From positions 1-46,916 of the forward strand of contig NZ_AOHZ01000085.1 of assembly GCF_000337215.1 (NCBI RefSeq): DNA of 46,916 nucleotides. The letters run 5' to 3'. The notes beneath the pieces are model-generated. The model was given only the letters and a program-made list of their open reading frames with translations, made no database searches and was not told where the DNA came from. Shown here in pieces: positions 6,861 through 39,279 of the stretch. This stretch comes from Natronolimnohabitans innermongolicus JCM 12255. GTDB taxonomy: Archaea > Halobacteriota > Halobacteria > Halobacteriales > Natrialbaceae. Numbering within the stretch: position 1 is the stretch's first letter; every line of letters begins with the position of its first letter. A program made the translations under genes and the position numbers.

Positions 6861-6884
6861 GTGGACCCAGTCGTACTATCCGAT

Positions 6885-8030
6885 ATGGACTTCGCGATAC
6901 CGTCCGAACAGCAGGCGATGCTCGAGGAGATCCGCCGGTTCGGCGAGAACGAGATCGAGCCGGTCGCCGGGGAGTACGACCGCGACGAGACGTACCCTCA
7001 CGAGATCATGGACAAAGCCGCCGAGATGGGGCTGCTCGGCTCGGCGTTCCCGGTCGAGTACGGCGGCGCCGACTACTCGATGCTCGAGCGCGCGCTGATG
7101 ATCGAGGAACTGTTCTCGATCGACCCCGGAATCGCCCTCTGTATCACGTCCGCCGACTTCGGCAGCGAGGCGATCCTCGAGTTCGGCACCGAGGAACAGA
7201 AAGAACGGTACCTGCCGCCGATCGCGGCGGGCGAGGCGGTGATGGGCGCGGCGATCTCGGAACCGCAGGCCGGCTCCGACGTGACCTCGCTGACGACGCG
7301 CGCGGAGAAAAGTGGTGACGAGTGGGTCATCAACGGCAACAAGATGTGGATCACGAACGGAACGATCGGCGACTACTTCGTCGTTCTCTGCGAGACGGAT
7401 CCCGACGCCGAGAGCCGCCACGCCGGCTACTCCCAGCTCATCGTCGAGGCCGACCGCGACGGGTTCGACGCGGACAAGATCAGCGGCAAGATGGGCGTCC
7501 GCGCCAGTCCGACGGCCGAACTGATCCTCGACGACGTCCGCGTCCCCGAGGCAAACCTCGTCGGCACGCGCGGCGAGGGCTTCTACCAGCAGATGCAGTT
7601 CTTCGACGAGACGCGCGTCACCGTCGCCGCACAGGGCGTCGGCATCGCGACGGGCGCGGCCGACCGCGCACGCGAGTACGCCCAGGAGCGCGAACAGTTC
7701 GACCAGGCCATCGCCGAGTTCCAGGCGATCCAGCACAAGATCGCGGAGATGTACACCGACATCGAGGCGGCGCGCCAGCTCACCTACAAGGCCGCCTGGG
7801 CCGCGGACCGGGACGACGTCGACGGAACGCGGTACTCCTCGATGGCTAAGGAGTACGGCTCCCGCGTGGCCGTCGACGTCGCCAACGAGGCGGTCCAGAT
7901 CCACGGGGGCTCGGGCTACGTCGACGACTTCGCCGTCGAGCGCTTCTACCGCGACGCGAAGATCACCCAGATCTACGAGGGGACGACCGAAGTTCAGAAG
8001 AACATCATCGCTCGAGAACTGCTCTCGTGA
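6885..8030 (+). CDS. Acyl-CoA dehydrogenase 1 (canonical catalytic Glu)
   Basis: FAD-dependent acyl-CoA dehydrogenase, 381 aa, the usual length, oxidising acyl-CoA to trans-2-enoyl-CoA and passing electrons to electron-transfer flavoprotein. N-terminal helical domain, middle beta domain (SEPQAGSDVTSL; WVINGNKMWITNG) and C-terminal helical domain are all present. The C-terminus has the classic IYEGTTEVQ motif, so the catalytic base is Glu365. At the alternative base position used by isovaleryl-CoA dehydrogenase it has Thr (FDETRVTVA). It is therefore of the short/medium-chain type, unlike the other three dehydrogenases in the window. The TATA-like box at 6851-6860 supports this ATG over one 24 bp upstream. 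An acyl-CoA ligase follows 83 bp downstream on the same strand. Confidence 0.95.
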   Translation: MDFAIPSEQQAMLEEIRRFGENEIEPVAGEYDRDETYPHEIMDKAAEMGLLGSAFPVEYGGADYSMLERALMIEELFSIDPGIALCITSADFGSEAILEFGTEEQKERYLPPIAAGEAVMGAAISEPQAGSDVTSLTTRAEKSGDEWVINGNKMWITNGTIGDYFVVLCETDPDAESRHAGYSQLIVEADRDGFDADKISGKMGVRASPTAELILDDVRVPEANLVGTRGEGFYQQMQFFDETRVTVAAQGVGIATGAADRAREYAQEREQFDQAIAEFQAIQHKIAEMYTDIEAARQLTYKAAWAADRDDVDGTRYSSMAKEYGSRVAVDVANEAVQIHGGSGYVDDFAVERFYRDAKITQIYEGTTEVQKNIIARELLS

Positions 8031-10425: not shown

Positions 10426-11715
10426 ATGTGTGATAACCGAGAGGAAAGCGGAGAAGCGAGTCGACGAAACTTCATGGTCGGATGCGGTGCCGCGGCGGCG
10501 ATGGCCGTAAGCGGACTCGGTGCCGGTACGGCGGCGGGACAAATGGAGTCGATGGGGGACATCGAAACGCTAGTCGACGGATTGCCGACCAACTGGGGGC
10601 GGTGGGGCGAAGACGACGAGATCGGCGCGCTCAATTTGCTCGACAGCGAGCAGACGTTTGCCGGACTGCAGGCGGCGATGCGCGGCGGTCCGAACAACAT
10701 CCAGCAGTACACGCTGCAGGTCCCGATGACGGGCGACGCGCTGGAATCGGTCGTCGACGAGACCGCAGAGTCGTCGGTGGACGCTGGCGATCCACTGTAC
10801 CCGCCGCGGACGCCGGCCAGACGGGATAATACCGACGACGCGACGACCATCGACGATCCCGCCGCGAACGCCGGAGTCAAGTCGTCCGACGACGCGTTCG
10901 TCACGAAGCTGTTCCTCCACGGGACGACTCACATCGACGCGCTCGGACACGTCTGGTACGGCGACCAGCTCTACAACGGGTACGACGAGATGGCGACGGC
11001 GGCGGTGACGGAGTTCGACCAGCCGATTCCGGGGCTCGATGCCGAGGGCAACGCGACCGAGGTGACCGAAACCAGGGGACACGCCGAGGCCAGCGTCGCG
11101 CCGCTCGCCGAGTCCGGAATCACGGGTCGCGCGGTCCTCCTCGACGTCGGTCGTCACGCGGGCGACGAAAACGGCTGGCTCGAGCTCGGCGCCTCGATAA
11201 CGCTGTCGGATCTCCTGGAAACGGCGGATACACAGGGCGTCGACGTTCGGGAACGGGACATCGTCCTCGTCCGAACCGGCGCCGTCGAGCGGGCGGTCGA
11301 TCCCGACGCGGAGTGGGGACCGGACGCGGAACCGGGCCTTACCTTCAGCGAGGAACTCGTCGAGTGGGTCCACGAGATGGACATTCCGCTCATCGGCGCG
11401 GACAATATCGCGGTCGAAAAACTCGTCCAGAAAATCGACGGCGAAACCTACGTGATCCCGCTCCACGCGGCACTGCTTCGCGACCTCGGCGTCTCGCTGA
11501 ACGAAATACTCTGGCTCGGTGACGTGGCCGAACAGTGTGCAGAAGACGGCATCTACGAACTCATGTACGCCGCGGCGCCGTTACACGTCGACCGTGCGAC
11601 GGGGGCGCCGGCAAACCCGATCGTCCTGAAAGCGACTCGAGACGGCGACCGCGGACGGGACACTGATCGCCGAGGGGACGCCGCAAACGGCGAAAACCGG
11701 CGGCCACGCAACTGA
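10426..11715 (+). CDS. Tat-exported cyclase family hydrolase
   Basis: A 429-residue protein of the cyclase/kynurenine formamidase-like family (PF04199), metal-dependent hydrolases that open cyclic amides, esters or related bonds. The metal-binding motif HGTTHIDALGH is at residues 165-175. The N-terminus has a twin-arginine signal: SRRNFM at 12-17 followed by a hydrophobic Ala/Gly-rich segment to about residue 38. This predicts export through the Tat pathway, unlike the cytoplasmic members of this family. The C-terminus after about residue 400 is a charged, low-complexity tail. It stands alone between two gene-poor stretches upstream of the dehydrogenase/MFS/CoA-transferase cluster. A role in extracellular processing of a lactone or amide before uptake is an inference. 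Confidence 0.88.
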   Translation: MCDNREESGEASRRNFMVGCGAAAAMAVSGLGAGTAAGQMESMGDIETLVDGLPTNWGRWGEDDEIGALNLLDSEQTFAGLQAAMRGGPNNIQQYTLQVPMTGDALESVVDETAESSVDAGDPLYPPRTPARRDNTDDATTIDDPAANAGVKSSDDAFVTKLFLHGTTHIDALGHVWYGDQLYNGYDEMATAAVTEFDQPIPGLDAEGNATEVTETRGHAEASVAPLAESGITGRAVLLDVGRHAGDENGWLELGASITLSDLLETADTQGVDVRERDIVLVRTGAVERAVDPDAEWGPDAEPGLTFSEELVEWVHEMDIPLIGADNIAVEKLVQKIDGETYVIPLHAALLRDLGVSLNEILWLGDVAEQCAEDGIYELMYAAAPLHVDRATGAPANPIVLKATRDGDRGRDTDRRGDAANGENRRPRN

Positions 11716-12171: not shown

Positions 12172-13428
12172 ATGATCGGCGAACGATCGTTGCTCGAGGA
12201 CGACGAAACGGCGTATCTCGAAGCGACCAAGCGCGTGCTTCGCGAGGAGGTCTTTACGGGCCAACTCGACAGAGACCACATCGAGTCGCTGGACCGAAAC
12301 GAGGAGACCGAAGACGACTGGGCGACGTACGCAGAGCGGATGGGCGAACACGATTTGCTGGGCGTCTCTATTCCGACCGAGCACAACGGCGGCGGCGAGG
12401 GGATTATCGAGACGGTGCTCGCCGAACAGGCGATCGGATACGAAGGGAGCATCGTCCACGCCTGTCAGACCTCCCTGACCCAGCACATCGGTCGGACGAT
12501 GTACGAACACGGCAGCGACTACATCGTCGAAAACTACCTCGAGCCGATGCTCGCCGGCGAGTTCGTCGTCGCGCAGGCCTTTACCGAACCCGGGAGCGGC
12601 ACCGACATCGCCAACCTCGAGACGAGTGCGGAACGCGACGGCGCGGACTACGTCGTCAACGGCGAGAAGCGATTCATCGACTTCGCGCCGTACGCCGACG
12701 TGTTGTTCGTTCCGGTCCGAACCAGCGGTTCGGCCGGCGACCGAGACGGGCTCTCGATCCTCGTCGTCGACGGCGACACGGACGGTCTCGACGTGCTCGA
12801 GCCCCACACTGACTGGCACGGGTTCCGGGGCACCGGCGCCTCCTGGATCGAGTTCGACGACGCGCGGGTTCCGGCGGAGAACGTCGTCGGCGAACCCGGC
12901 GAGGCCTGGACGTACATCACGAACGAACTCAACCTCGAGCACCTCACGATCTCGCGGTACTGTCTCGGCGCCAGCGAACGCGCACTCGAGATCGCGATCG
13001 ATTATACGGCCGAACGAGAGGTAAACGATCAGTCGCTCTCGCGGTACCAGGGTGTCAACCACAAGATCGCCGATCTCAGCACTCGCCTCGACGCGGCTTA
13101 CGCGCTGAACACGCGGGCGGCCCGGATTCTCGACGACCGGGGGATGGACGCCGGACGCATGGAAGGGGCGATGGCCAAGCAGTTCGGCAACGAACTCGCC
13201 CACGAGATCGCCGACACGGCGATGCAGGTGATGGGCGGCATCTCTACGACGACGAAGTATCCGGTCGAACGCATCCAACGCGACGTGCGGGCGGGTCGGT
13301 ACATGGGCGGTGCGACCGAGGTGATGCAGAGTATCGTCCAGCACGACGTCTACGCGTCCGTCCGCGACGAGACGTTCGACGGCGACCTCGTCGGAAACGA
13401 ACTCGAGGGCAAACCCTGGCGGACGTGA
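12172..13428 (+). CDS. Acyl-CoA dehydrogenase 2 (isovaleryl-CoA dehydrogenase-type base)
   Basis: FAD-dependent acyl-CoA dehydrogenase, 418 aa, with an N-terminus about 30 residues longer than usual. Motifs AFTEPGSGTDIANL (136-149) and YVVNGEKRFID (160-170) mark the middle domain. At the classic catalytic position the sequence is RYMGGATEV, so Glu is replaced by Gly379. Instead, LNLEHLTISR places Glu256 where isovaleryl-CoA dehydrogenase (Glu254) and long-chain acyl-CoA dehydrogenase carry their base. An active enzyme for branched or otherwise bulky acyl-CoA is therefore likely. It is followed 129 bp downstream by an MFS carrier and then a CoA-transferase, all on the plus strand. Confidence 0.93.
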   Translation: MIGERSLLEDDETAYLEATKRVLREEVFTGQLDRDHIESLDRNEETEDDWATYAERMGEHDLLGVSIPTEHNGGGEGIIETVLAEQAIGYEGSIVHACQTSLTQHIGRTMYEHGSDYIVENYLEPMLAGEFVVAQAFTEPGSGTDIANLETSAERDGADYVVNGEKRFIDFAPYADVLFVPVRTSGSAGDRDGLSILVVDGDTDGLDVLEPHTDWHGFRGTGASWIEFDDARVPAENVVGEPGEAWTYITNELNLEHLTISRYCLGASERALEIAIDYTAEREVNDQSLSRYQGVNHKIADLSTRLDAAYALNTRAARILDDRGMDAGRMEGAMAKQFGNELAHEIADTAMQVMGGISTTTKYPVERIQRDVRAGRYMGGATEVMQSIVQHDVYASVRDETFDGDLVGNELEGKPWRT

Positions 13429-18032: not shown

Positions 18033-19205
18033 TCAGTAGTCGTAAAACCCGGCGCCGGCGTCCGTCCCGGTTCGGCCGTCCGAGACGAGTTCCCGAAGGT
18101 ACGGCGCGGGTTCGTACCTGTCGGCGCCGTACTCCTCGTGGAGCGACTCGAGTTTCTCGACGATGACGTCGATTCCCGTTTCGTCGGCGTACGTACAGGG
18201 GCCTTCGGGGAAGCCGGTGCCGAGGCGCATCCCGGTGTCGACCGCGTCGGCGGTCGCGACGTCGTTGCCGATGAGCCGGGCGGCCTCGTTGACGATCATG
18301 GCGTCGACCCGCAGCGTGTCGAACTCCGCGCCGTCACCCTCCTCGTAGTCGGGTCCGTCGCCGTTTTCGTACTCGTAATGGCCCGTCCCCGTCTTCCGGC
18401 CGAGCTCTTCGTTCTCGACTTTTTGTTCCATCAGGGGCGGGACGTCGACGTCGCCGGCCTGTCTGACGTGGTAGGAGACCTCGATTCCGGTCATGTCGAT
18501 GAGTTCGAACGGCCCCATCGGATACCCCCGCCGGTGAACCATCGCGGCGTCGACCTCCCGAACCGTCGCCTCGTCGTTCGAAACCATCCAGTGGGGTTCG
18601 TCGAGGAACGGACCGAGGACGTTGTTGACGACGAACCGGTGGACGTCCTTTCGGACGTGGATGGGTTCCTTGCCGATGGCTTCCATAAACTCGGCTGCGC
18701 GCTCGGCCGTCTCGTCCGCCGTCTCCGAACCGTAGACGACTTCGACGAGCTCCATCTTTACGGGCGGATTGAAAAAGTGCAGGCCGACCACGTCGGACGG
18801 TCGCTCCGTCGCGCTCGCGATCTCCGTGATCGAGAGCGACGAGGTGTTCGACGCGAGGATCGCCCCCTCCGGCGCGAACCGATCGACGTCCGCGAACACG
18901 TCCTGCTTCAGTTCCATCTGCTCCGGTACGGCCTCGATGACGATATCGGCGTCGGCGACGCTCTCCTCGAGATCGACCGCCGTCTCGATCCGCGCCATCA
19001 CGTCCTCGACCGGTTCCTCGAGAGCGCCGCCGTCCTCGAGTTTCTCGAGCGACCACTCGACGTTTCGATACCCCTCCTCGACGGTCTCGTCGTCGACGTC
19101 TCGCATCGTGACGTCGTAGCCGGCCATCGCGACGACCTCGGCGATCCCGTGACCCATGCTTCCGGTACCGATTACGGTCGCGTGCTGAATGTCCTCACCT
19201 TGCAT
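18033..19205 (-). CDS. 3-hydroxyacyl-CoA dehydrogenase, stand-alone
   Basis: NAD+-dependent 3-hydroxyacyl-CoA dehydrogenase, 390 aa. NAD-binding motif GTGSMG is at residues 13-18, SNTSS at 119-123, and the catalytic His-Glu pair lies in GLHFFNPPVKMELVEV (His143 with Glu152 or Glu155). It is closely similar to the N-terminal half of the fusion protein at the left edge but ends with GFYDY exactly where that protein continues into its hydratase domain. The ATG at 19205 is preceded by a TATA-like box at 19228-19238; a longer frame would overlap the divergent promoter. It is divergent from a crotonase-ligase operon. Confidence 0.94.
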   Translation of the reverse strand: MQGEDIQHATVIGTGSMGHGIAEVVAMAGYDVTMRDVDDETVEEGYRNVEWSLEKLEDGGALEEPVEDVMARIETAVDLEESVADADIVIEAVPEQMELKQDVFADVDRFAPEGAILASNTSSLSITEIASATERPSDVVGLHFFNPPVKMELVEVVYGSETADETAERAAEFMEAIGKEPIHVRKDVHRFVVNNVLGPFLDEPHWMVSNDEATVREVDAAMVHRRGYPMGPFELIDMTGIEVSYHVRQAGDVDVPPLMEQKVENEELGRKTGTGHYEYENGDGPDYEEGDGAEFDTLRVDAMIVNEAARLIGNDVATADAVDTGMRLGTGFPEGPCTYADETGIDVIVEKLESLHEEYGADRYEPAPYLRELVSDGRTGTDAGAGFYDY

Positions 19206-19227
19206 TGTGAACTTCCTGCACGCCTCA

Positions 19228-19238
19228 CTACTTAACCC
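19228..19238 (-). promoter_or_regulatory. TATA-like box of the stand-alone 3-hydroxyacyl-CoA dehydrogenase
   Basis: Minus-strand GGGTTAAGTAG about 28 bp upstream of the ATG at 19205. Confidence 0.6.
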
Positions 19239-19311
19239 CACCGACTCGAGCGGTACGAACCGTCTGTGGCTGGTTTGGGAGGACGTTCGTTCGGACGCGG
19301 TGTTCTCGATG

Positions 19312-19324
19312 AAAAAAGATAATA
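19312..19324 (+). promoter_or_regulatory. TATA-like box of the crotonase/ligase 2 operon
   Basis: AAAAAAGATAATA about 28 bp before the ATG at 19348; shares a 142-bp divergent region with the dehydrogenase promoter. Confidence 0.6.
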
Positions 19325-19347
19325 CTCCCGTTGGCAAACGAACACAC

Positions 19348-20007
19348 ATGAGTGTAGATAGCACGGATCTCGTCGAACTGGATCGAACGGACGACCTCCT
19401 CGAGGTTCGGTTGAACCGGCCCGACAAACTCAACGCGTTGAATCCCGAGCTCATCGAGGGACTTCACGAGGCGTTCACTGCGGTCGCCGACGAGCGAGGA
19501 CTGGGTATCGTGATAACGGGCGCCGGTCGCGTCACCTGCGCGGGAATGGACACGGAGATCGTCTCCGGCGACTACGGCGAGTACCCGGACCTCCACGCCA
19601 CGCTACAGGAGGTGTATCAGCTGATCGAGACGCACCCCGGCCCCGTCGCCATCGCCGGTAGGGGCGCGCTCGTCGGCGCCGGGGCGATCATCTCGCTGTC
19701 CTGCGAGTTCGTCGTTCTCAGCGAGGACGCGACGTTCGCGATTCCGGAGGTGAAGTACGACATCGCGTCGGCGCGAGCCGCTGATCGACTCCCCGACGTC
19801 GTCGGTCCGCGGGCGGCCGCGGAGCTGTTGCTCACCGGGGAGGAGATCGATCCGGAGCGGGCTCGATCGCTCGGGCTCGCGACCGACGTCGTCCCGTCGG
19901 ACGCGGTCGAGGACCGCGCTCGCGAGCTGGTCGCGACCGTCGGCGACCACGACCCGGAGACGATCGCCGAGCTGATCGAGCTGTTGAACGGAGGGGCCGA
20001 CACGTGA
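19348..20007 (+). CDS. Enoyl-CoA hydratase/isomerase family protein (short)
   Basis: A crotonase-fold protein of 219 aa, shorter than the usual 250-260 because the C-terminal helices are reduced. The oxyanion-hole loops are ITGAGRVTCAGMD (about 57-68) and GRGALVGAGAI (about 104-114). Of the two hydratase glutamates, only Glu134 (AIPEVKYD) is present; the other position is Ile114. This pattern is more like an enoyl-CoA isomerase or a specialised crotonase than a standard hydratase. Start chosen from the TATA-like box at 19312-19324. Its stop overlaps the GTG start of ligase 2 (GTGA), so the two are translationally coupled. Confidence 0.9.
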   Translation: MSVDSTDLVELDRTDDLLEVRLNRPDKLNALNPELIEGLHEAFTAVADERGLGIVITGAGRVTCAGMDTEIVSGDYGEYPDLHATLQEVYQLIETHPGPVAIAGRGALVGAGAIISLSCEFVVLSEDATFAIPEVKYDIASARAADRLPDVVGPRAAAELLLTGEEIDPERARSLGLATDVVPSDAVEDRARELVATVGDHDPETIAELIELLNGGADT

Positions 20008-21722
20008 GCCACCTTCCGCCGCCGGACGAACGCTTCGAGGTCACGCGGGAGAGCTGGCCCGACGACCTCCCCCGAACCCTCTCGTTTCCCGACGGGCGAC
20101 GCCCCATCCACGAGTCGGTTCGGATCCGCGCTCGAGAGCACCCCGACGCGCCGGCGGTGACGTTCTACGGTCGAACGCTCTCCTGGAGCGACCTCGAGGC
20201 GGCCGTCGACGCGTTCGCGAAATCGATGCGGGCACGGGGGTACGACACCGGCGACGTCTGCGGCCTCTACCTCCAGAACTCGCCGCAGTTTCTCGTCGCG
20301 TACCACGGCGCGCACAGAGCCGGGATGGCGGTGACGCCGATCAATCCGCAGTTCAAGGCGCCGGCCGTCGCCAGACAGCTCGAGGACAGCGACGCGGCGG
20401 TCGTCGTGACTCACACGGACGCAGTCGACGTCGTTCGAACGGCGAGCGCCGAGACCGCCGTCGACGACGTCGTCGTGACCGCCTACGGGGAGTTCGCCGG
20501 CGACGGCGACGACGTCCCCCTCCCCGCCGTCGTCGCGGACGAATCACCGGTGGCGGACGTGGTGGACGACGACGTGCCGTTCGAGCGGTTGCTCGAGGAG
20601 GATCGATCGGTCGAGCTGCCCGACGTCGCCCTCGACGACGCGGCGTTGCTCCAGTACACGGGCGGCACGACGGGCTTGCCGAAGGGCTGCGTCCACACCC
20701 ACTGGAACGTGCTGTTCAAAGCGGCGACGACCGCGCGGGTTCGGGGCTACGGGCGACCGGACGTGCTCCTCGGGACGATGCCGCTGTTTCACGTCGCGGG
20801 GAAACAACGGTACTGCGACGCGCTGCCGATAACGGGCTGTCACGCGGTCCTCCTCGCCCGGTACGAGCCGGACGCCGTGTTGGCGTCGATCGACGAACAC
20901 GAGGTGACGTCGACGTGGCTCGCCGTTCCGTCGATCCAGGAACTCCTCGAGCACCCCGACGTCGACGACTACGACCTCACGTCGCTGTCGGACCGCCGCG
21001 AGTTCACCAACTGCTCGAGCTTCGGAACGGCGCTCACCCGGGAGCTGAGCGACGCGTGGCGCGAGCGCACGGGCGCGTACGTCCAGGAGTCCGGATACGG
21101 GCTCACCGAGACGCACACGACGGATACGCACACGTACGGCGACTCGCGGGTCGACCCCGGATTCGTCGGGCAGCCGTGCTACGGGGTCGAAATCGAAATC
21201 CGAGACTTCGAGACCAACGAGGCGCTTCCCGCGGGCGAGTCCGGCGAGATCGTGGTGCGGTCGCAGGCGACGATGGAGGAGTACCTGAACCGGCCGGACG
21301 CGACGGCGGCGGTCCTCGAGGCCGACGGCTTCCTCCACACCGGCGACGTGGGGCGGCTGACCGAGGACGGCTTCCTGTACTTCCTCGGGCGCCGCAAGGA
21401 CACGCTCAAGGTCTCCGGTCACACCGTCTCGCCGCGAGAGGTGGAGACGGTGCTGTCCGACCACGACGCCGTCGACGAGGTGCTGGTCGTCGGCGCGCCA
21501 CACGAGCGACGCGGATCCGTCCTCGAGGCGCACGTCGTTCCGACCGACGAGGCGACGACCGAGGACGCCCTCGAGGAGGCCATCTTGCCGTTCGCCGAGG
21601 CGAATCTGGCCGAGTACAAGGTGCCAAAGCGCGTCGTTCGCCGCGATTCGTTCCCCCGGACCGACGTCGGGAAGGTCGACCGCGTCGCCTACCGGGAGAC
21701 GCTCCCGGCGGACTACGAGTGA
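20004..21722 (+). CDS. AMP-forming acyl-CoA ligase 2
   Basis: A 572-residue adenylate-forming ligase starting with GTG at 20004. Motifs include YTGGTTGLPKGCVHTH (P-loop), GYGLTETHTTD, FLHTGDVGRL, GRRKDTLKVSG and the C-terminal FPRTDVGKVDR with the catalytic lysine. It overlaps the preceding crotonase by 4 bp and probably acts in the same pathway. It is most like long-chain or general acyl-CoA synthetases; the substrate cannot be told from sequence. Confidence 0.93.
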   Translation: MSHLPPPDERFEVTRESWPDDLPRTLSFPDGRRPIHESVRIRAREHPDAPAVTFYGRTLSWSDLEAAVDAFAKSMRARGYDTGDVCGLYLQNSPQFLVAYHGAHRAGMAVTPINPQFKAPAVARQLEDSDAAVVVTHTDAVDVVRTASAETAVDDVVVTAYGEFAGDGDDVPLPAVVADESPVADVVDDDVPFERLLEEDRSVELPDVALDDAALLQYTGGTTGLPKGCVHTHWNVLFKAATTARVRGYGRPDVLLGTMPLFHVAGKQRYCDALPITGCHAVLLARYEPDAVLASIDEHEVTSTWLAVPSIQELLEHPDVDDYDLTSLSDRREFTNCSSFGTALTRELSDAWRERTGAYVQESGYGLTETHTTDTHTYGDSRVDPGFVGQPCYGVEIEIRDFETNEALPAGESGEIVVRSQATMEEYLNRPDATAAVLEADGFLHTGDVGRLTEDGFLYFLGRRKDTLKVSGHTVSPREVETVLSDHDAVDEVLVVGAPHERRGSVLEAHVVPTDEATTEDALEEAILPFAEANLAEYKVPKRVVRRDSFPRTDVGKVDRVAYRETLPADYE

Positions 21723-21842: not shown

Positions 21843-22259
21843 CTAGTCGTCAGCCGGAACGAAGACGGGGACGGCCACGTCGTCGGTCGCCGTCGGCACG
21901 AAGCGGGCGTCGACCGCCATCCCCACCTCGACGTCCTCGGCCGGACAGCCGACGACGTTCGTGATCACGCGGGGGCCCTCCTCGAGTTCGACGTAGGCGA
22001 AGACCGCCGGCAGGTCGTCGTCCGGCCAGAACTCGAGGTGGCGGTGAATCGCGAACGAGTAGACCGTCGCGGCTCCCGTCGCCTCCCGCCACTCGGCGTC
22101 GGCGAAACAGTCCGGACACAGCGCGCTCGGATAGTGGTAGACGAGGCCGCAGTCGGGACACTCCCGGACGAGGAATCGCCCGTCCGCGGCGGCCGACCAG
22201 AACGGCTCGGTCTCGGGGGTGACCGTCGGCACCGGACGTGGCTCCCAGGCGTCGATCAT
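21843..22259 (-). CDS. Zn-ribbon OB-fold protein (DUF35), thiolase partner
   Basis: A 138-residue DUF35 protein: an N-terminal helical segment, a zinc ribbon with CPDC (about residues 34-37) and a second CPDC (about 48-51), and a C-terminal OB fold. DUF35 proteins pair with thiolase-fold enzymes, forming complexes such as Ltp2-ChsH2 of steroid side-chain degradation, the BbsA-BbsB thiolase and archaeal acetoacetyl-CoA thiolase/HMG-CoA synthase. Its ATG overlaps the thiolase stop as ATGA, so a stable complex with the upstream gene product is expected. Confidence 0.92.
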   Translation of the reverse strand: MIDAWEPRPVPTVTPETEPFWSAAADGRFLVRECPDCGLVYHYPSALCPDCFADAEWREATGAATVYSFAIHRHLEFWPDDDLPAVFAYVELEEGPRVITNVVGCPAEDVEVGMAVDARFVPTATDDVAVPVFVPADD

Positions 22260-23422
22260 CGGTCTTCCCTCCCGAGAACGGCGGTGATCGATCCGTGTCT
22301 CGTCCCGAGGCTTCCGCCGGTTCCGTGGGCAATCGCGACGTCGGCGTCGACCTGAACCTCGTCGTTCGCCTCGCCGCGGAGCTGTCGAACCGCCTCGATT
22401 ACCTTCGTCATACCGCCCCTGTTCCCGGGGTGGTTCGAACAGAGCCCCCCGCCGTCGGTGTTAAACGGCAGGTCGCCGTCGGGCGCCTGCAGCGTGCCGC
22501 CCTCGACGAACGACCCGCCCTCGCCCTTCTCGCAGAAGCCGAGATCCTCGAGCGTCTGCAGGACGGTGATCGTAAACGAGTCGTAGATCGACGCGTAGTC
22601 GACGTCGTCCGGACCGATCCCCGCGTCCTCGAACGCCCGCGGTCCGGACTCCCGGGCCGCGGTGTGGGTCAGGTCGATTCGCCCGCCCTCGCGGTGGCCG
22701 ATCGCCTCGCCGTACCCGAGAACCTCCACGCAGTCGCGCTCGAGTTCGGCGCGAACGTCCTCGCTCACGACGAGGAGGGCGCCGCCGCCGTCGGTGACGA
22801 CGCAGCAGTCGAGCAGGTGCAGGGGGTCCGCGACCGGCCGCGACTCGACGACGTCCTCGACCGTCACCGGATCCCGAAAGAGCGCGTGCTCGTTGTACTG
22901 GGCGTGGTGTGATGCGGCGACCCGGATCTCGGCGAGTTGCTCGCGCGTCGTCCCGTACTCGTGCATGTGACGCTGTGCCGCGACGGCGTACTTGCTGAGC
23001 GTCGTCGCGCCGTAGGTCACCTCGAAGGCGTCTTGATAGGTGTGAAACTCGTCGCCGCCGGCGTTCTTCCCGGATCGGGGACGTCCGGCGAGCGTGATGA
23101 GGGCGACGTCGCAACGCCCCTCGCGGATCGCGTCCGCCGCGTGGCCGACGTGGCCGACGTAGGACGACCCGCCCCAGTCGGTCGTTCCCGCGTGACTCAC
23201 GTCGAGCCCCAGATAGTCGGCCATTATCAGCGGCGTGAGACCGCGCTCGTACCACGGCATTCCGGCGGTGAAGTAGCCGTCGACGTCGTCCTTCGCGAGC
23301 CCCGCGTCGGCGAGTGCGCCGCGAGCGACTTCGGCGTGTAACTGCATCGTCGATTTGTCGGGCGCCTCTCTGGTCGGGTGCTCGTAGGCACCCGCTATGA
23401 ACACTGGTTCCGAATCGACCAT
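22256..23422 (-). CDS. Thiolase-fold (SCP-x/lipid-transfer type) protein lacking the usual Cys residues
   Basis: A 388-residue thiolase-superfamily protein of the SCP-x type (ADPLHLLDCCVVTDGGGALLV; IYDSFTITVLQTLEDLGFCEKGEGG; HPGNRGGM). The normal nucleophile region reads TDWGGSSYVGHVGHA (residues 81-95) with no cysteine, and the C-terminal Cys motif is replaced by HGTGGSLGTRHG. It may catalyse a retro-aldol or other non-classical C-C cleavage, like Ltp2 of sterol catabolism, rather than standard thiolysis. The partner DUF35 gene overlaps its stop. The ATG at 23422 is favoured over a GTG 12 bp upstream by the TATA-like box at 23445-23456. Confidence 0.9.
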   Translation of the reverse strand: MVDSEPVFIAGAYEHPTREAPDKSTMQLHAEVARGALADAGLAKDDVDGYFTAGMPWYERGLTPLIMADYLGLDVSHAGTTDWGGSSYVGHVGHAADAIREGRCDVALITLAGRPRSGKNAGGDEFHTYQDAFEVTYGATTLSKYAVAAQRHMHEYGTTREQLAEIRVAASHHAQYNEHALFRDPVTVEDVVESRPVADPLHLLDCCVVTDGGGALLVVSEDVRAELERDCVEVLGYGEAIGHREGGRIDLTHTAARESGPRAFEDAGIGPDDVDYASIYDSFTITVLQTLEDLGFCEKGEGGSFVEGGTLQAPDGDLPFNTDGGGLCSNHPGNRGGMTKVIEAVRQLRGEANDEVQVDADVAIAHGTGGSLGTRHGSITAVLGREDR

Positions 23423-23599: not shown

Positions 23600-24736
23600 A
23601 TGATTTCGCTCTCCCCCGAACAGGAGATGCTAGTATCGTCGCTGGAGGACCTCGCCGAGCGCGAGTTCACCGACAAGGCCTTCGAGTGGGACGGCCCGCC
23701 CTGGGAAAACGTCGAGTTGCTGGCCGAGCAGGGCTTTCTCGGCATCAACATCGCCGAGGAGTACGGCGGCGGCGGCATGACCGAGTTCGACGCCGTCCTC
23801 ACGATCGAAGCCGTCGGCCGCGTCTGTCCGGACACCGCGGAGTTCCTCTACAACCAGCAGATGGTCGCGCCTCGAGCCATCGAGATGTTCGGCACCGAGG
23901 CGGCGAAAGAGCGGTACCTGCCGCCCGTAATGGACGGCGGGGATGCGATTGCGATCGCGATCTCCGAGCCCGAAGCCGGTTCGGACGTGGGATCGATGCG
24001 GACCCGCGTCGAGGAGGACGACGACGGAACGCTCGTCCTCAACGGCGAGAAGATCTGGGTCAGCCACGTCGAGCAGTCGAGCGCCGCGGTCGTCTGGGCG
24101 AAATTCCCGGAGGGGCTCGGCTCCGTGATCGTCGAACTCGACGCCGAGGGCGTGGAGATCGAACAGCACTACGCGAACATGGCCGACCAGCACCAGACGC
24201 ACTTCCGAATGAACGACGTCGTCGTTCCGGACGAGAACGTCCTGACGCGCGGCAAGGACGGGTTCAAGAACCAGCTGCAGGCGCTCAACTGGGAGCGCCT
24301 CGGCAGCGCGACGGTCGCGAACGCGTGGGCTCGCTGCGCGCTCGATAAGGCCCTCGAGTACGTCGAGACGCGCGAGCAGTTCGATCAGCCGATCGGCGAC
24401 TTTCAGGGCGTCGAGTGGATGCTGGCCGACATGACCAAGGAGGTCGAGGCGTCGCGTGCGCTCACCCACCGCGCGGCGGTGCGGGCACACAACCGTGGCG
24501 AGGCGCCGGACCGACTCGACTCCTCGCTGGCCAAACTCTACGCGAGCCAGATGGTCGAGGACGTCGTGAGCACGTCGCTACAGCTTCACGGCGCTAACGG
24601 CTACCAGCAGGGTCACCCGCTCGAGTACCTCTATAGACTCGCCCGAGGTCGCCGACTCGCGGCCGGAACCGACGAAATTCAAAAGAATCAGATCGCCGCC
24701 GCCGTCAAGCGAAACGGACTGCCGGACCTCGCCTAA
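23600..24736 (+). CDS. Acyl-CoA dehydrogenase 3 (isovaleryl-CoA dehydrogenase-type base)
   Basis: A 378-residue FAD-dependent acyl-CoA dehydrogenase. AISEPEAGSDVGSM (120-133) and LVLNGEKIWVSH mark the middle domain. The C-terminal motif is LAAGTDEIQKN, with Ala355 in place of the classic catalytic Glu, very like the GAGTSEV of isovaleryl-CoA dehydrogenase. Glu232 in LNWERLGSA occupies the isovaleryl-type base position. The ATG at 23600 is fixed by the promoter at 23568-23576; the longer upstream frame is spurious. It is divergent from the thiolase-fold/DUF35 operon and could supply its enoyl-CoA precursor. Confidence 0.94.
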   Translation: MISLSPEQEMLVSSLEDLAEREFTDKAFEWDGPPWENVELLAEQGFLGINIAEEYGGGGMTEFDAVLTIEAVGRVCPDTAEFLYNQQMVAPRAIEMFGTEAAKERYLPPVMDGGDAIAIAISEPEAGSDVGSMRTRVEEDDDGTLVLNGEKIWVSHVEQSSAAVVWAKFPEGLGSVIVELDAEGVEIEQHYANMADQHQTHFRMNDVVVPDENVLTRGKDGFKNQLQALNWERLGSATVANAWARCALDKALEYVETREQFDQPIGDFQGVEWMLADMTKEVEASRALTHRAAVRAHNRGEAPDRLDSSLAKLYASQMVEDVVSTSLQLHGANGYQQGHPLEYLYRLARGRRLAAGTDEIQKNQIAAAVKRNGLPDLA

Positions 24737-24802: not shown

Positions 24803-25588
24803 TCAGGAACTGTACTCGCGATCGTACTCCGGATCTCGTTTTTCCTGGAACGCGGCGATCGCCTCGTGGTGTTCGTCGTCGTTGACGCACTCCCACTGGT
24901 GTTCGATCGCGTCCTTGCAGTAGTCCTCGAAGGAGTTGCGCCAGTCGACGAGTCGATTCGTGCGACGAACCGCGGTCGCCGGAAGGTCGAGGAGATCCTC
25001 GGCGAGGGCTCGCGAGGCGCCTACCGGGTCGTCGGCGAGCTCGACGGCGAGTCCGAGGTCGACCGCGTCTTCGGGGGTGATATCCTTCCCCGTCAGCAGG
25101 TACTCTTTCGCCTTCGCCTCGCCGATGAGCCGCGGCAGGAGCCAGCCGCCGCCGTCGCCGGGAACGAGTCCGACGCGGACGAACCCCTCCCGAAGAACGG
25201 CGTCGTCGCCGACGATACGGAAGTCACACGCGAGGGCGAAGTCACAGCCCGCGCCGATCGCCGGCCCACCGACGGCGGCGATCGACGGCTTGTCGGTCGT
25301 CCGCAGCTGTCTGACGACGTTCTGAACTCCCCAGAGGTAGCCCGCATAGTCCTCCTTCGACATGTCCTCGTGCCAGTTCGGCATCTCGCTGACGTCCGCC
25401 CCGGCGCAGAATCCGTCGCCGGCGCCCGTAACGAGGATGACGTACACCCCGTCGTCGTCGGTCGCGTCCCTGAGGGCGACGTTGAGCTCGGCGATCGTCT
25501 GCTGGCGAAACGCGTTGTACACGTCCGGCCGCTCGATGGTGATCGTCGCGATTCCCTCGTCCGTCTCGTAGCTGATATCCTCGTACAT
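24803..25588 (-). CDS. PaaG-like enoyl-CoA hydratase/isomerase family protein
   Basis: A 261-residue crotonase-fold protein. Oxyanion loops are TGAGDGFCAGADVSEMP (54-70) and GGPAIGAGCDFALACD (107-122). The hydratase glutamates are replaced by Asp116 and Phe136, while FVRVGLVPGDGGGWLLPRLIG matches the PaaG-type isomerase pattern (FVKVGLVPD-GG), with Asp145 nearby as possible catalytic acid. It could therefore be an enoyl-CoA or oxepin-forming type isomerase rather than a hydratase. It is a single gene on the minus strand, divergent from the TAXI receptor. Confidence 0.92.
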   Translation of the reverse strand: MYEDISYETDEGIATITIERPDVYNAFRQQTIAELNVALRDATDDDGVYVILVTGAGDGFCAGADVSEMPNWHEDMSKEDYAGYLWGVQNVVRQLRTTDKPSIAAVGGPAIGAGCDFALACDFRIVGDDAVLREGFVRVGLVPGDGGGWLLPRLIGEAKAKEYLLTGKDITPEDAVDLGLAVELADDPVGASRALAEDLLDLPATAVRRTNRLVDWRNSFEDYCKDAIEHQWECVNDDEHHEAIAAFQEKRDPEYDREYSS

Positions 25589-38109: not shown

Positions 38110-39279
38110 TCAGTACGACCGCGGGAGATCGAGCACGTGCTGTGCGATGTAGTTTTTCACCATCTCGTTCGAGATCGGCGCGATGACGTTGATCATGACC
38201 TCGCGCCAGTAGCGCTCGACGTCGTACTCCCTCGCGTACCCCATCCCGCCGTGGACGCGAACGGCGCGCTCGCAGGCTTCGATCGCGTCCTCGCTCGAGC
38301 GAAGTTTGACGGCGTTGGCCTCCGGCCCCGCGTTCTTCCCCTCGTCGTACAGCCAGGCGGCCTTTCGGATCATCAGTTCGTCCTGGGCCAGCTTGCTCCA
38401 GGACTCCGCGAGGGGGTGTTGGATCGCCTGGTAGGAGCCGATCGCGGCGTCGAAGACCTCGCGCTCTCTGGCGTAGGAGGCGGCCTTCTCGAGGGCGGCC
38501 TGTCCGATTCCGACCGCGTTCGCGGCGATGCTGATCCGTTCGGAGTTCGCGAAGGAGAGGAGGTATTTGAACCCCTCTCCCTCCTCGCCGATGCGGTCTT
38601 CGACCGGGACGCGGAAGTCCTCGAACCAGACCTCGTTCGAATCCGCCGCGCCGCGGCCCGCCTTCGGAATCTCGCTGACGTCCACGCTGTCCATCTCCTC
38701 GTTGAATTCCGTAAAAAACAGCGTGAGTCCGCCGAACCGCTCGCTCGCTTCCCTGGGCTGCGTTCTGGTGAGCAACATGATGACGTCGGCTTCCTGGGCC
38801 TTCGAGGTCCAGATCTTCTGTCCGTTTACGACGTACTCGTCGCCGTTTCGCTCGGCGACCGTCTCGATCCGGGACGTGTCCGTGCCGGCGTTCGGTTCCG
38901 TGACGCCGGTACAGACCATGACGTCCCCGTCGGCGATACGCGGCAGGTACCGTTCTTTGTGGTCCTCGGAGCCGTACTCGACGAGCGGGGCGGCGCTGAA
39001 AACGTGGTGGGAGGTGATCGACGTCCCGGCCATCGCCGCGCCGGAGCGGGCGATCTCCTGCTGGACGATGCTCGCTTCCTGAACGCCGTACCCCTGGCCG
39101 CCGTACGCCTCCGGAATCGTGATGCCACACCAGCCGCCCTCGGCGAACGCCTCGTAGAACTCCCACGCGAATTCGTGGTTCGCGTCCTTCTCGCGCCAGT
39201 ACTCGTCGCCGAACTGGTCGCAGAGCGTCTGAATCTCGTTCCGGATGAGCCGCTGCTCGTCGCTGAGCGCAAAGTCCAT
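38110..39279 (-). CDS. Acyl-CoA dehydrogenase 4 (isovaleryl-CoA dehydrogenase-type base)
   Basis: A 389-residue FAD-dependent acyl-CoA dehydrogenase. GVTEPNAGTDTSRI (125-138) and YVVNGQKIWTSK (149-160) mark the middle domain, and RVHGGMGYAREYDVERYWREVM the C-terminal domain. The classic catalytic motif is lost: the aligned region is INVIAPISNEM, with Pro368 at the Glu position. Glu247 in FANSERISIA lies at the isovaleryl-CoA dehydrogenase base position. The ATG at 39279 has a good TATA-like box about 27 bp upstream. It is alone on the minus strand, convergent with the crotonase. Confidence 0.94.
   Translation of the reverse strand: MDFALSDEQRLIRNEIQTLCDQFGDEYWREKDANHEFAWEFYEAFAEGGWCGITIPEAYGGQGYGVQEASIVQQEIARSGAAMAGTSITSHHVFSAAPLVEYGSEDHKERYLPRIADGDVMVCTGVTEPNAGTDTSRIETVAERNGDEYVVNGQKIWTSKAQEADVIMLLTRTQPREASERFGGLTLFFTEFNEEMDSVDVSEIPKAGRGAADSNEVWFEDFRVPVEDRIGEEGEGFKYLLSFANSERISIAANAVGIGQAALEKAASYAREREVFDAAIGSYQAIQHPLAESWSKLAQDELMIRKAAWLYDEGKNAGPEANAVKLRSSEDAIEACERAVRVHGGMGYAREYDVERYWREVMINVIAPISNEMVKNYIAQHVLDLPRSY

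Follow-up and report, generated by a model that had tools for sequence, protein, structure and literature searches.

A gene pair in a haloarchaeal genome probably encodes a heteromeric retro-aldolase made of a thiolase-fold and a DUF35 subunit, a reading based on the active-site residues, the phylogeny, the fold, and the partner protein. The pair lies in the stretch of 46,916 nucleotides from Natronolimnohabitans innermongolicus JCM 12255 that was analyzed as a whole and is called the window here:

22256..23422, minus strand: thiolase-fold protein, Cys-less, 388 aa, NCBIfam PRK08142 (NF006010)
21843..22259, minus strand: DUF35 protein with zf-ChsH2 zinc ribbon and OB_ChsH2_C domain (Pfam), 138 aa

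Both reading frames and their coordinates agreed with the first-pass annotation of this DNA, as did the ATGA at 22256-22259 shared by the stop codon (TGA) of the thiolase-fold gene and the start codon (ATG) of the DUF35 gene. The peptides highlighted there, DWGGSSYVGHVGHA (residues 82-95) and HGTGGSLGTRHG (residues 366-377), were also found in the thiolase-fold protein. Pfam assigned Thiolase_N and Thiolase_C_1 to this protein, and its full-length match to PRK08142 scored 580 bits against a curated cut-off of 462. The curated NCBIfam name of PRK08142 is "thiolase domain-containing protein". However, the active-site residues of the window protein do not fit the name, and this widespread family is probably mislabelled as thiolase.

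For the alignment, 113 non-identical sequences of the family, from haloarchaea and many of them from bacteria, were combined with IpfD, sequences from the PDB, and the other thiolase-fold proteins of this genome. Ltp2 Tyr294 and Tyr344 were at their expected places in the alignment, and Sal Tyr302 and Gln352 fitted with a constant offset of 24. The sites of most concern are:

23168..23170, minus strand: codon of Gly85, at the position of the nucleophilic Cys in thiolases; conserved as Gly in 113/113 members, CtSal, TcLtp2, and IpfD
22574..22585, minus strand: Y280-D281-S282-F283, the YDxF motif, invariant in 113/113
22430..22432, minus strand: His331 (NHP), in the column of Ltp2 Tyr344, Sal Gln352, and the thiolase HP-His; 112/113

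With respect to thiolase membership, the nucleophilic Cys and the HD[CA]F motif were absent from all 113 members, which have Gly85 and YDSF instead, and the HP histidine was present as His331. Seven Cys thiolases from the same genome have Cys in the nucleophile column and the HDCF motif. An intact Cys-His-Cys site, which the first-pass annotation had named as evidence against its own suggestion, was not found in the alignment. Its description of the nucleophile region as free of cysteine stood, with the refinement that the column is occupied by Gly85 and not by a serine. An ordinary thiolase using Ser86 or Ser87 as an unusual nucleophile would agree with the curated name, the thiolase fold, and the retained HP-His. 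However, residue 86 is other than Ser in 17 of the 113 members, residue 87 is Ala or Val in 12, the Cys column is uniformly Gly, and the tree sets the family apart from Cys thiolases. We rejected serine as the replacement nucleophile because both residues vary, and consider such a thiolase highly improbable. The C-terminal Cys motif had also been described as replaced; the peptide is indeed present, but the CxG cysteine is the wrong yardstick for the SCP2/archaeal type (Thiolase_C_1). That cysteine is also missing from the Cys thiolases encoded in this genome, which have THNVGG or AHNAGG at that site, and in SCP-2 thiolases the HDCF motif supplies the second catalytic Cys (PMC12329534). The change from HD[CA]F to YDSF, missed in the earlier reading, is more telling than that of the C-terminal motif.

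The YDSFT segment is kept in 113/113 members, a signal far beyond chance, as are N330 and P332, and His366 is retained in 107/113. The invariance of Gly85, Y280, D281, S282, and F283, together with His331 in all but one member, indicates an active site that is maintained and not decayed. This conservation bears on the alternative that the thiolase-fold protein is catalytically inert or regulatory and, with the DUF35 protein, just binds acyl-CoA. Such a partner could have lost the thiolase cysteines, and DUF35 proteins serve as scaffolds in other complexes (PMC12329534). Yet the active site ranks with the best-conserved positions of the family, and most loci have no adjacent active thiolase; we regard an inert partner as very improbable.

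In the columns of the nucleophilic Cys, the HD-His, the HDC-Cys, and the HP-His, the window protein has Gly, Tyr, Ser, and His; CtSal has Gly, Tyr, Cys, and Gln; TcLtp2 has Gly, Tyr, His, and Tyr; and IpfD has Gly, Tyr, Ala, and Tyr. Tyr280 occupies the catalytic-base column (Ltp2 Tyr294, Sal Tyr302). Both tyrosines were found to be catalytic by mutagenesis, and Sal, with Gly in place of the thiolase nucleophile, is incapable of thiolysis (PMC12329534). The two enzymes use different acids: Ltp2 pairs the YDHF Tyr as base with Tyr344, and Sal pairs Tyr302 as base with Cys304 (PMC12329534).

Ltp2-ChsH2(DUF35) (PDB 6ok1), an aldolase of steroid side-chain cleavage, has the Gly at the Cys column, the Tyr of YDHF/YDSF, and a C4 DUF35 protein in common with the window pair, but the general acid Tyr344 corresponds to His331, the oxyanion-hole His of YDHF to Ser282 (113/113), and ChsH2 bears an extra hydratase-type domain, unlike the window DUF35. 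Sal-Shy(DUF35), the bile acid aldolase of Comamonas testosteroni (PDB 9myr), likewise combines Gly at the Cys column, the Tyr of YDxF/Y, and a DUF35 subunit. It differs in its acid Cys304 (YDCY), which is Ser282 in the window protein, in Gln352, which is His331, and in Shy, a MaoC fusion with a C3H1 zinc site, whereas the window DUF35 is stand-alone with a C4 pattern. Since the Cys304Ser variant of Sal is dead (PMC12329534), Ser282 is unlikely to be the acid. IpfDE from ibuprofen degradation (pIBU218), credited with the retro-aldol step releasing propionyl-CoA (PMC9195938), also consists of a Cys-less thiolase fold (motif YDAF) and a stand-alone DUF35 protein, although IpfD has Tyr, unlike the His331 of the window protein, at the Ltp2 Tyr344 column. 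In sterol degradation by Mycolicibacterium, the thiolase-fold aldolase Atf1, which has a steroid substrate and is likened here by its description, pairs with ChsH4, a stand-alone DUF35 protein of 138 aa (PMC10398937). A stand-alone DUF35 protein serving an aldolase thus has precedent in Atf1-ChsH4 and IpfDE. The archaeal AACT/HMGCS/DUF35 complex also unites a thiolase fold with DUF35 in Archaea. However, the archaeal thiolase 7yvy, related to this type, has Cys and HDAF, unlike the window protein, and of those window genes that were checked against Pfam, none encodes an HMG-CoA synthase partner.

The "putative thiolase" of Sphaerobacter thermophilus (PDB 4u4e), a solved structure, is 47-48% identical to the window protein and shares with it the Gly, YDSF, the HP-His, and HGTGG. 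The window protein contains further cysteines (C104, C206, C207, C297, and C328), of which Cys328 is near-invariant in PRK08142 (111/113). As a general stand-in for Sal Cys304 it was rejected, the column being Ser in the sister group and in 4u4e.

Judged by these residues, the window protein has the base of the known retro-aldolases and a second residue of its own. Because His331 stands in the Ltp2 Tyr344 column, it is the natural candidate for the general acid, and Tyr280 as base with His331 as acid probably constitutes a third catalytic arrangement. The analogy with Ltp2-ChsH2 drawn in the first-pass annotation therefore held in part: the protein is Cys-less, has a DUF35 partner, and counts Ltp2 among its closest characterized relatives by sequence, tree, and fold, but with His331 in place of the second Tyr it is not an Ltp2.

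In the retro-aldol mechanism that we propose, a crotonase or MaoC enzyme would hydrate enoyl-CoA to 3-hydroxyacyl-CoA. Tyr280, replacing the His of the thiolase HDCF motif, would remove the proton from the 3-hydroxyl, which the backbone NH of Gly85 could bind. The C2-C3 bond would be cleaved with no acyl-enzyme intermediate, as Gly85 stands instead of the nucleophilic Cys. The CoA enolate would be protonated, most likely by His331, yielding acetyl-CoA or propionyl-CoA and an aldehyde or ketone. The active site would be walled on one side by the DUF35 subunit, which may also anchor a hydratase. The residues and their invariance, the gene pairing, the phylogeny, and the fold were observed; from there we infer the reaction, the role of His331, the complex with DUF35, and the substrate class. 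We know of no activity for any PRK08142 member or for the sister 4u4e, and a literature search for activity of the PRK08142 family found no report.

Two features of the active site count against a retro-aldolase: the second residue is neither the Tyr344 of Ltp2 nor the Cys304 of Sal, and the thiolase residues His331 and His366 are both retained. The two histidines would also suit an enzyme that, like Cys-less ketosynthases (KSQ), decarboxylates its substrates, here of the malonyl-CoA type or 3-carboxyacyl-CoA, by means of oxyanion-hole His residues, and the thiolase-like TbSLP slowly decarboxylates malonyl-CoA (PMC12329534). However, TbSLP itself is now proposed as an aldolase, CtSal did not decarboxylate malonyl-CoA (PMC12329534), and the invariant Tyr of YDxF would be left unexplained. 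A decarboxylase is very unlikely.

The phylogeny agrees with the retro-aldolase reading. In the unrooted main tree of 39 sequences, one branch (100/97) separated PRK08142, the 4u4e group, Sal, Ltp2, and IpfD from the Cys thiolases, and the same branch was recovered (100/99.8) after removing four active-site segments and leaving out the long rows. The clustering with classical thiolases that had been put forward as counter-evidence was not observed. PRK08142 formed one clade (100/100) with the 4u4e group as its sister (97/95). The branching order within the Cys-less side was weakly determined, and IpfD was very distant, with an end branch of 2.0. An AU test with PRK08142 held with the thiolases gave a p value of 0.46, the constraint in an unrooted tree merely joining Sal and Ltp2 as a clade.

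The AlphaFold2 model of the thiolase-fold protein (27 aligned sequences, pLDDT 78, pTM 0.85) has the thiolase fold, with Z scores of 36-44 against thiolases and aldolases in the PDB. The best match was Sal of 9myr (CtSal, Z 44.0, 2.8 A, 367 residues), followed by 4u4e (42.8), the thiolase 7yvy (42.5), Ltp2 (41.5), and TbSLP (41.5); classical thiolases had Z near 30. As 7yvy falls between Sal and Ltp2, the fold score was rejected as a means of telling aldolases from archaeal-type thiolases. Low-confidence loops comprise residues 115-139, equivalent to the beta4-alpha4 loop, for which disorder has been reported in Sal and Ltp2, residues 197-211, and residues 325-334, which contain His331 and have pLDDT < 50.

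The partner protein also points to the aldolase complexes. Its zinc ribbon is encoded at:

22107..22160, minus strand: DUF35 zinc ribbon Cys34-x2-Cys37-x10-Cys48-x2-Cys51, with C4 spacing as in ChsH2 (PMC12329534)

The C4 pattern is conserved in most DUF35 partners of the family. Among PDB proteins, the window DUF35 matched ChsH2(DUF35) best (7e-18), ahead of Shy(DUF35) (3e-14) and the archaeal AACT/HMGCS DUF35 (2e-10). Moreover, a DUF35 gene was present within 6 kb of the family member at 35/35 haloarchaeal and 79/80 bacterial loci. On the whole, the earlier suggestion of a retro-aldolase was supported in part, by the missing Cys site, the DUF35 partner, and the grouping with Ltp2 and Sal, but not by the equivalent of Tyr344, which is His331.

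Genes for acyl-CoA catabolism crowd the window, which encodes four acyl-CoA dehydrogenases, several crotonases, AMP ligases, and CoA-transferases, as well as a 3-hydroxyacyl-CoA dehydrogenase, an SDR, and TRAP and MFS transporters. The genes around the pair are:

23600..24736, plus strand: acyl-CoA dehydrogenase, divergent neighbor, without the YEGT Glu and with Glu in NWER
24803..25588, minus strand: enoyl-CoA hydratase (crotonase family)
20004..21722, plus strand: AMP-forming acyl-CoA ligase
19189..20007, plus strand: enoyl-CoA hydratase/isomerase family protein
18033..19454, minus strand: 3-hydroxyacyl-CoA dehydrogenase with intact LHFFNP...LVEV motif

Three of the four acyl-CoA dehydrogenases (23600-24736, 38110-39279, and 12172-13428) lack the YEGT Glu and have Glu in the xER/xEH helix, which we take to be the position used by isovaleryl-CoA dehydrogenase; the fourth (6861-8030) is canonical. 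The isovaleryl-CoA-dehydrogenase-like Glu hints at branched substrates, and the substrate class proposed at first, branched or tertiary 3-hydroxyacyl-CoA, is plausible. At 10426-11715, a putative cyclase (PF04199) lies between ligase and acyl-CoA dehydrogenase genes and may indicate a cyclic or amide substrate.

The order of enoyl-CoA hydratase, acyl-CoA dehydrogenase, and divergent thiolase-fold/DUF35 pair also occurs in Halomarina sp. BCD28 and in another genome (L167). Elsewhere the neighbors vary (MaoC, enoyl-CoA hydratase, SDR, ligase, CoA-transferase, P450), too much between loci for a fixed pathway to be deduced from context. The sole constant is the pair itself, which suggests a reusable module for C-C cleavage and not a part of one pathway.

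The main counter-evidence is the 3-hydroxyacyl-CoA dehydrogenase beside the pair, which a simple retro-aldol route does not explain. An intact enzyme of this kind was found within 6 kb of the pair at 15/35 haloarchaeal loci and directly upstream at 6/35, all of one subtype (THWFNPPMLMELVEV), and most of these loci have no nearby Cys thiolase. At some haloarchaeal loci, it is as if the protein occupied the thiolase slot of beta-oxidation, which also counts against a retro-aldolase. The dehydrogenase could supply a ketone for a Cys-independent, Claisen-type cleavage of 3-ketoacyl-CoA in which His331 and His366, both kept from thiolases, activate CoA or water; SDR genes within 6 kb at 38/80 bacterial loci would fit as well. 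Against this stand the lack of a nucleophile, with Gly85 in 113/113 and S86 and S87 not conserved, and the near absence of the 3-hydroxyacyl-CoA dehydrogenase from bacterial loci. Moreover, we know of no thiolase-fold precedent for such a cleavage, which counts against it, and we consider it unlikely. The specific form in which Tyr280, His331, and His366 catalyze direct attack of CoA or water on the dehydrogenase-made ketone, with no covalent acyl-enzyme, is distinctly unlikely; if true, it would be a catalytic mode new to the thiolase fold. In sterol degradation, 3-hydroxyacyl-CoA is a branch point for the dehydrogenase Hsd4A and the aldolase Atf1 (PMC10398937), and the co-occurrence of a dehydrogenase is therefore not decisive.

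If the pair is a retro-aldolase, hundreds of bacterial and haloarchaeal "thiolase" genes would be C-C lyases of another mechanism, and pathway annotation would change accordingly. No thiolase-fold retro-aldolase from Archaea came up in the literature searched, so the pair would be the first to be assigned there, and its Tyr/His arrangement would join Tyr/Tyr of Ltp2 and Tyr/Cys of Sal. Cells could thereby cleave 3-hydroxyacyl-CoAs that are not oxidizable to ketones, such as tertiary alcohols from beta-branched chains, which may bear on the breakdown of isoprenoid and cyclic carboxylates in brines.

PRK08142 members above the cut-off were found in 26 of 391 sampled haloarchaeal genomes and, with hundreds of matches, in bacteria, where they are common in Proteobacteria and Actinobacteria. 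The haloarchaeal sequences form a moderately supported cluster (85/80) separate from the bacterial members, and transfer between the domains is likely. The window genome carries two members, 78% identical. The second copy of the pair (L013, G000:C86:67899-69056) is near two acyl-CoA dehydrogenases, a MaoC, a 3-hydroxyacyl-CoA dehydrogenase, and a Cys thiolase.

Other Cys-less thiolase folds were also observed. In the same genome, L006 (G000:C3:30127-31245) has TSSS where the nucleophilic Cys is absent, together with HDMF and a kept GHP, and is placed among the Cys thiolases in the tree. L011 (G000:C86:20174-21229), with GGTS and YAPF, adjoins a DUF35-like frame, acyl-CoA dehydrogenases, and a ligase; its placement is unsure owing to a long branch. 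Haloarchaea have a further, second group of Cys-less proteins, with GGSSFE, YDSF, and CHPG and scores of about 320 bits, which includes L051, L050, L048, and L049; this group is near Sphaerobacter 4u4e and occurs in about 20 sampled genomes. Finally, a divergent Cys-less YDSF protein of Methylobacterium (pMaq22A_2p, L065:23512-24639), with GHCG at the HP site, adjoins an OB-fold gene and an ADP-type CoA ligase and may represent a further subfamily.
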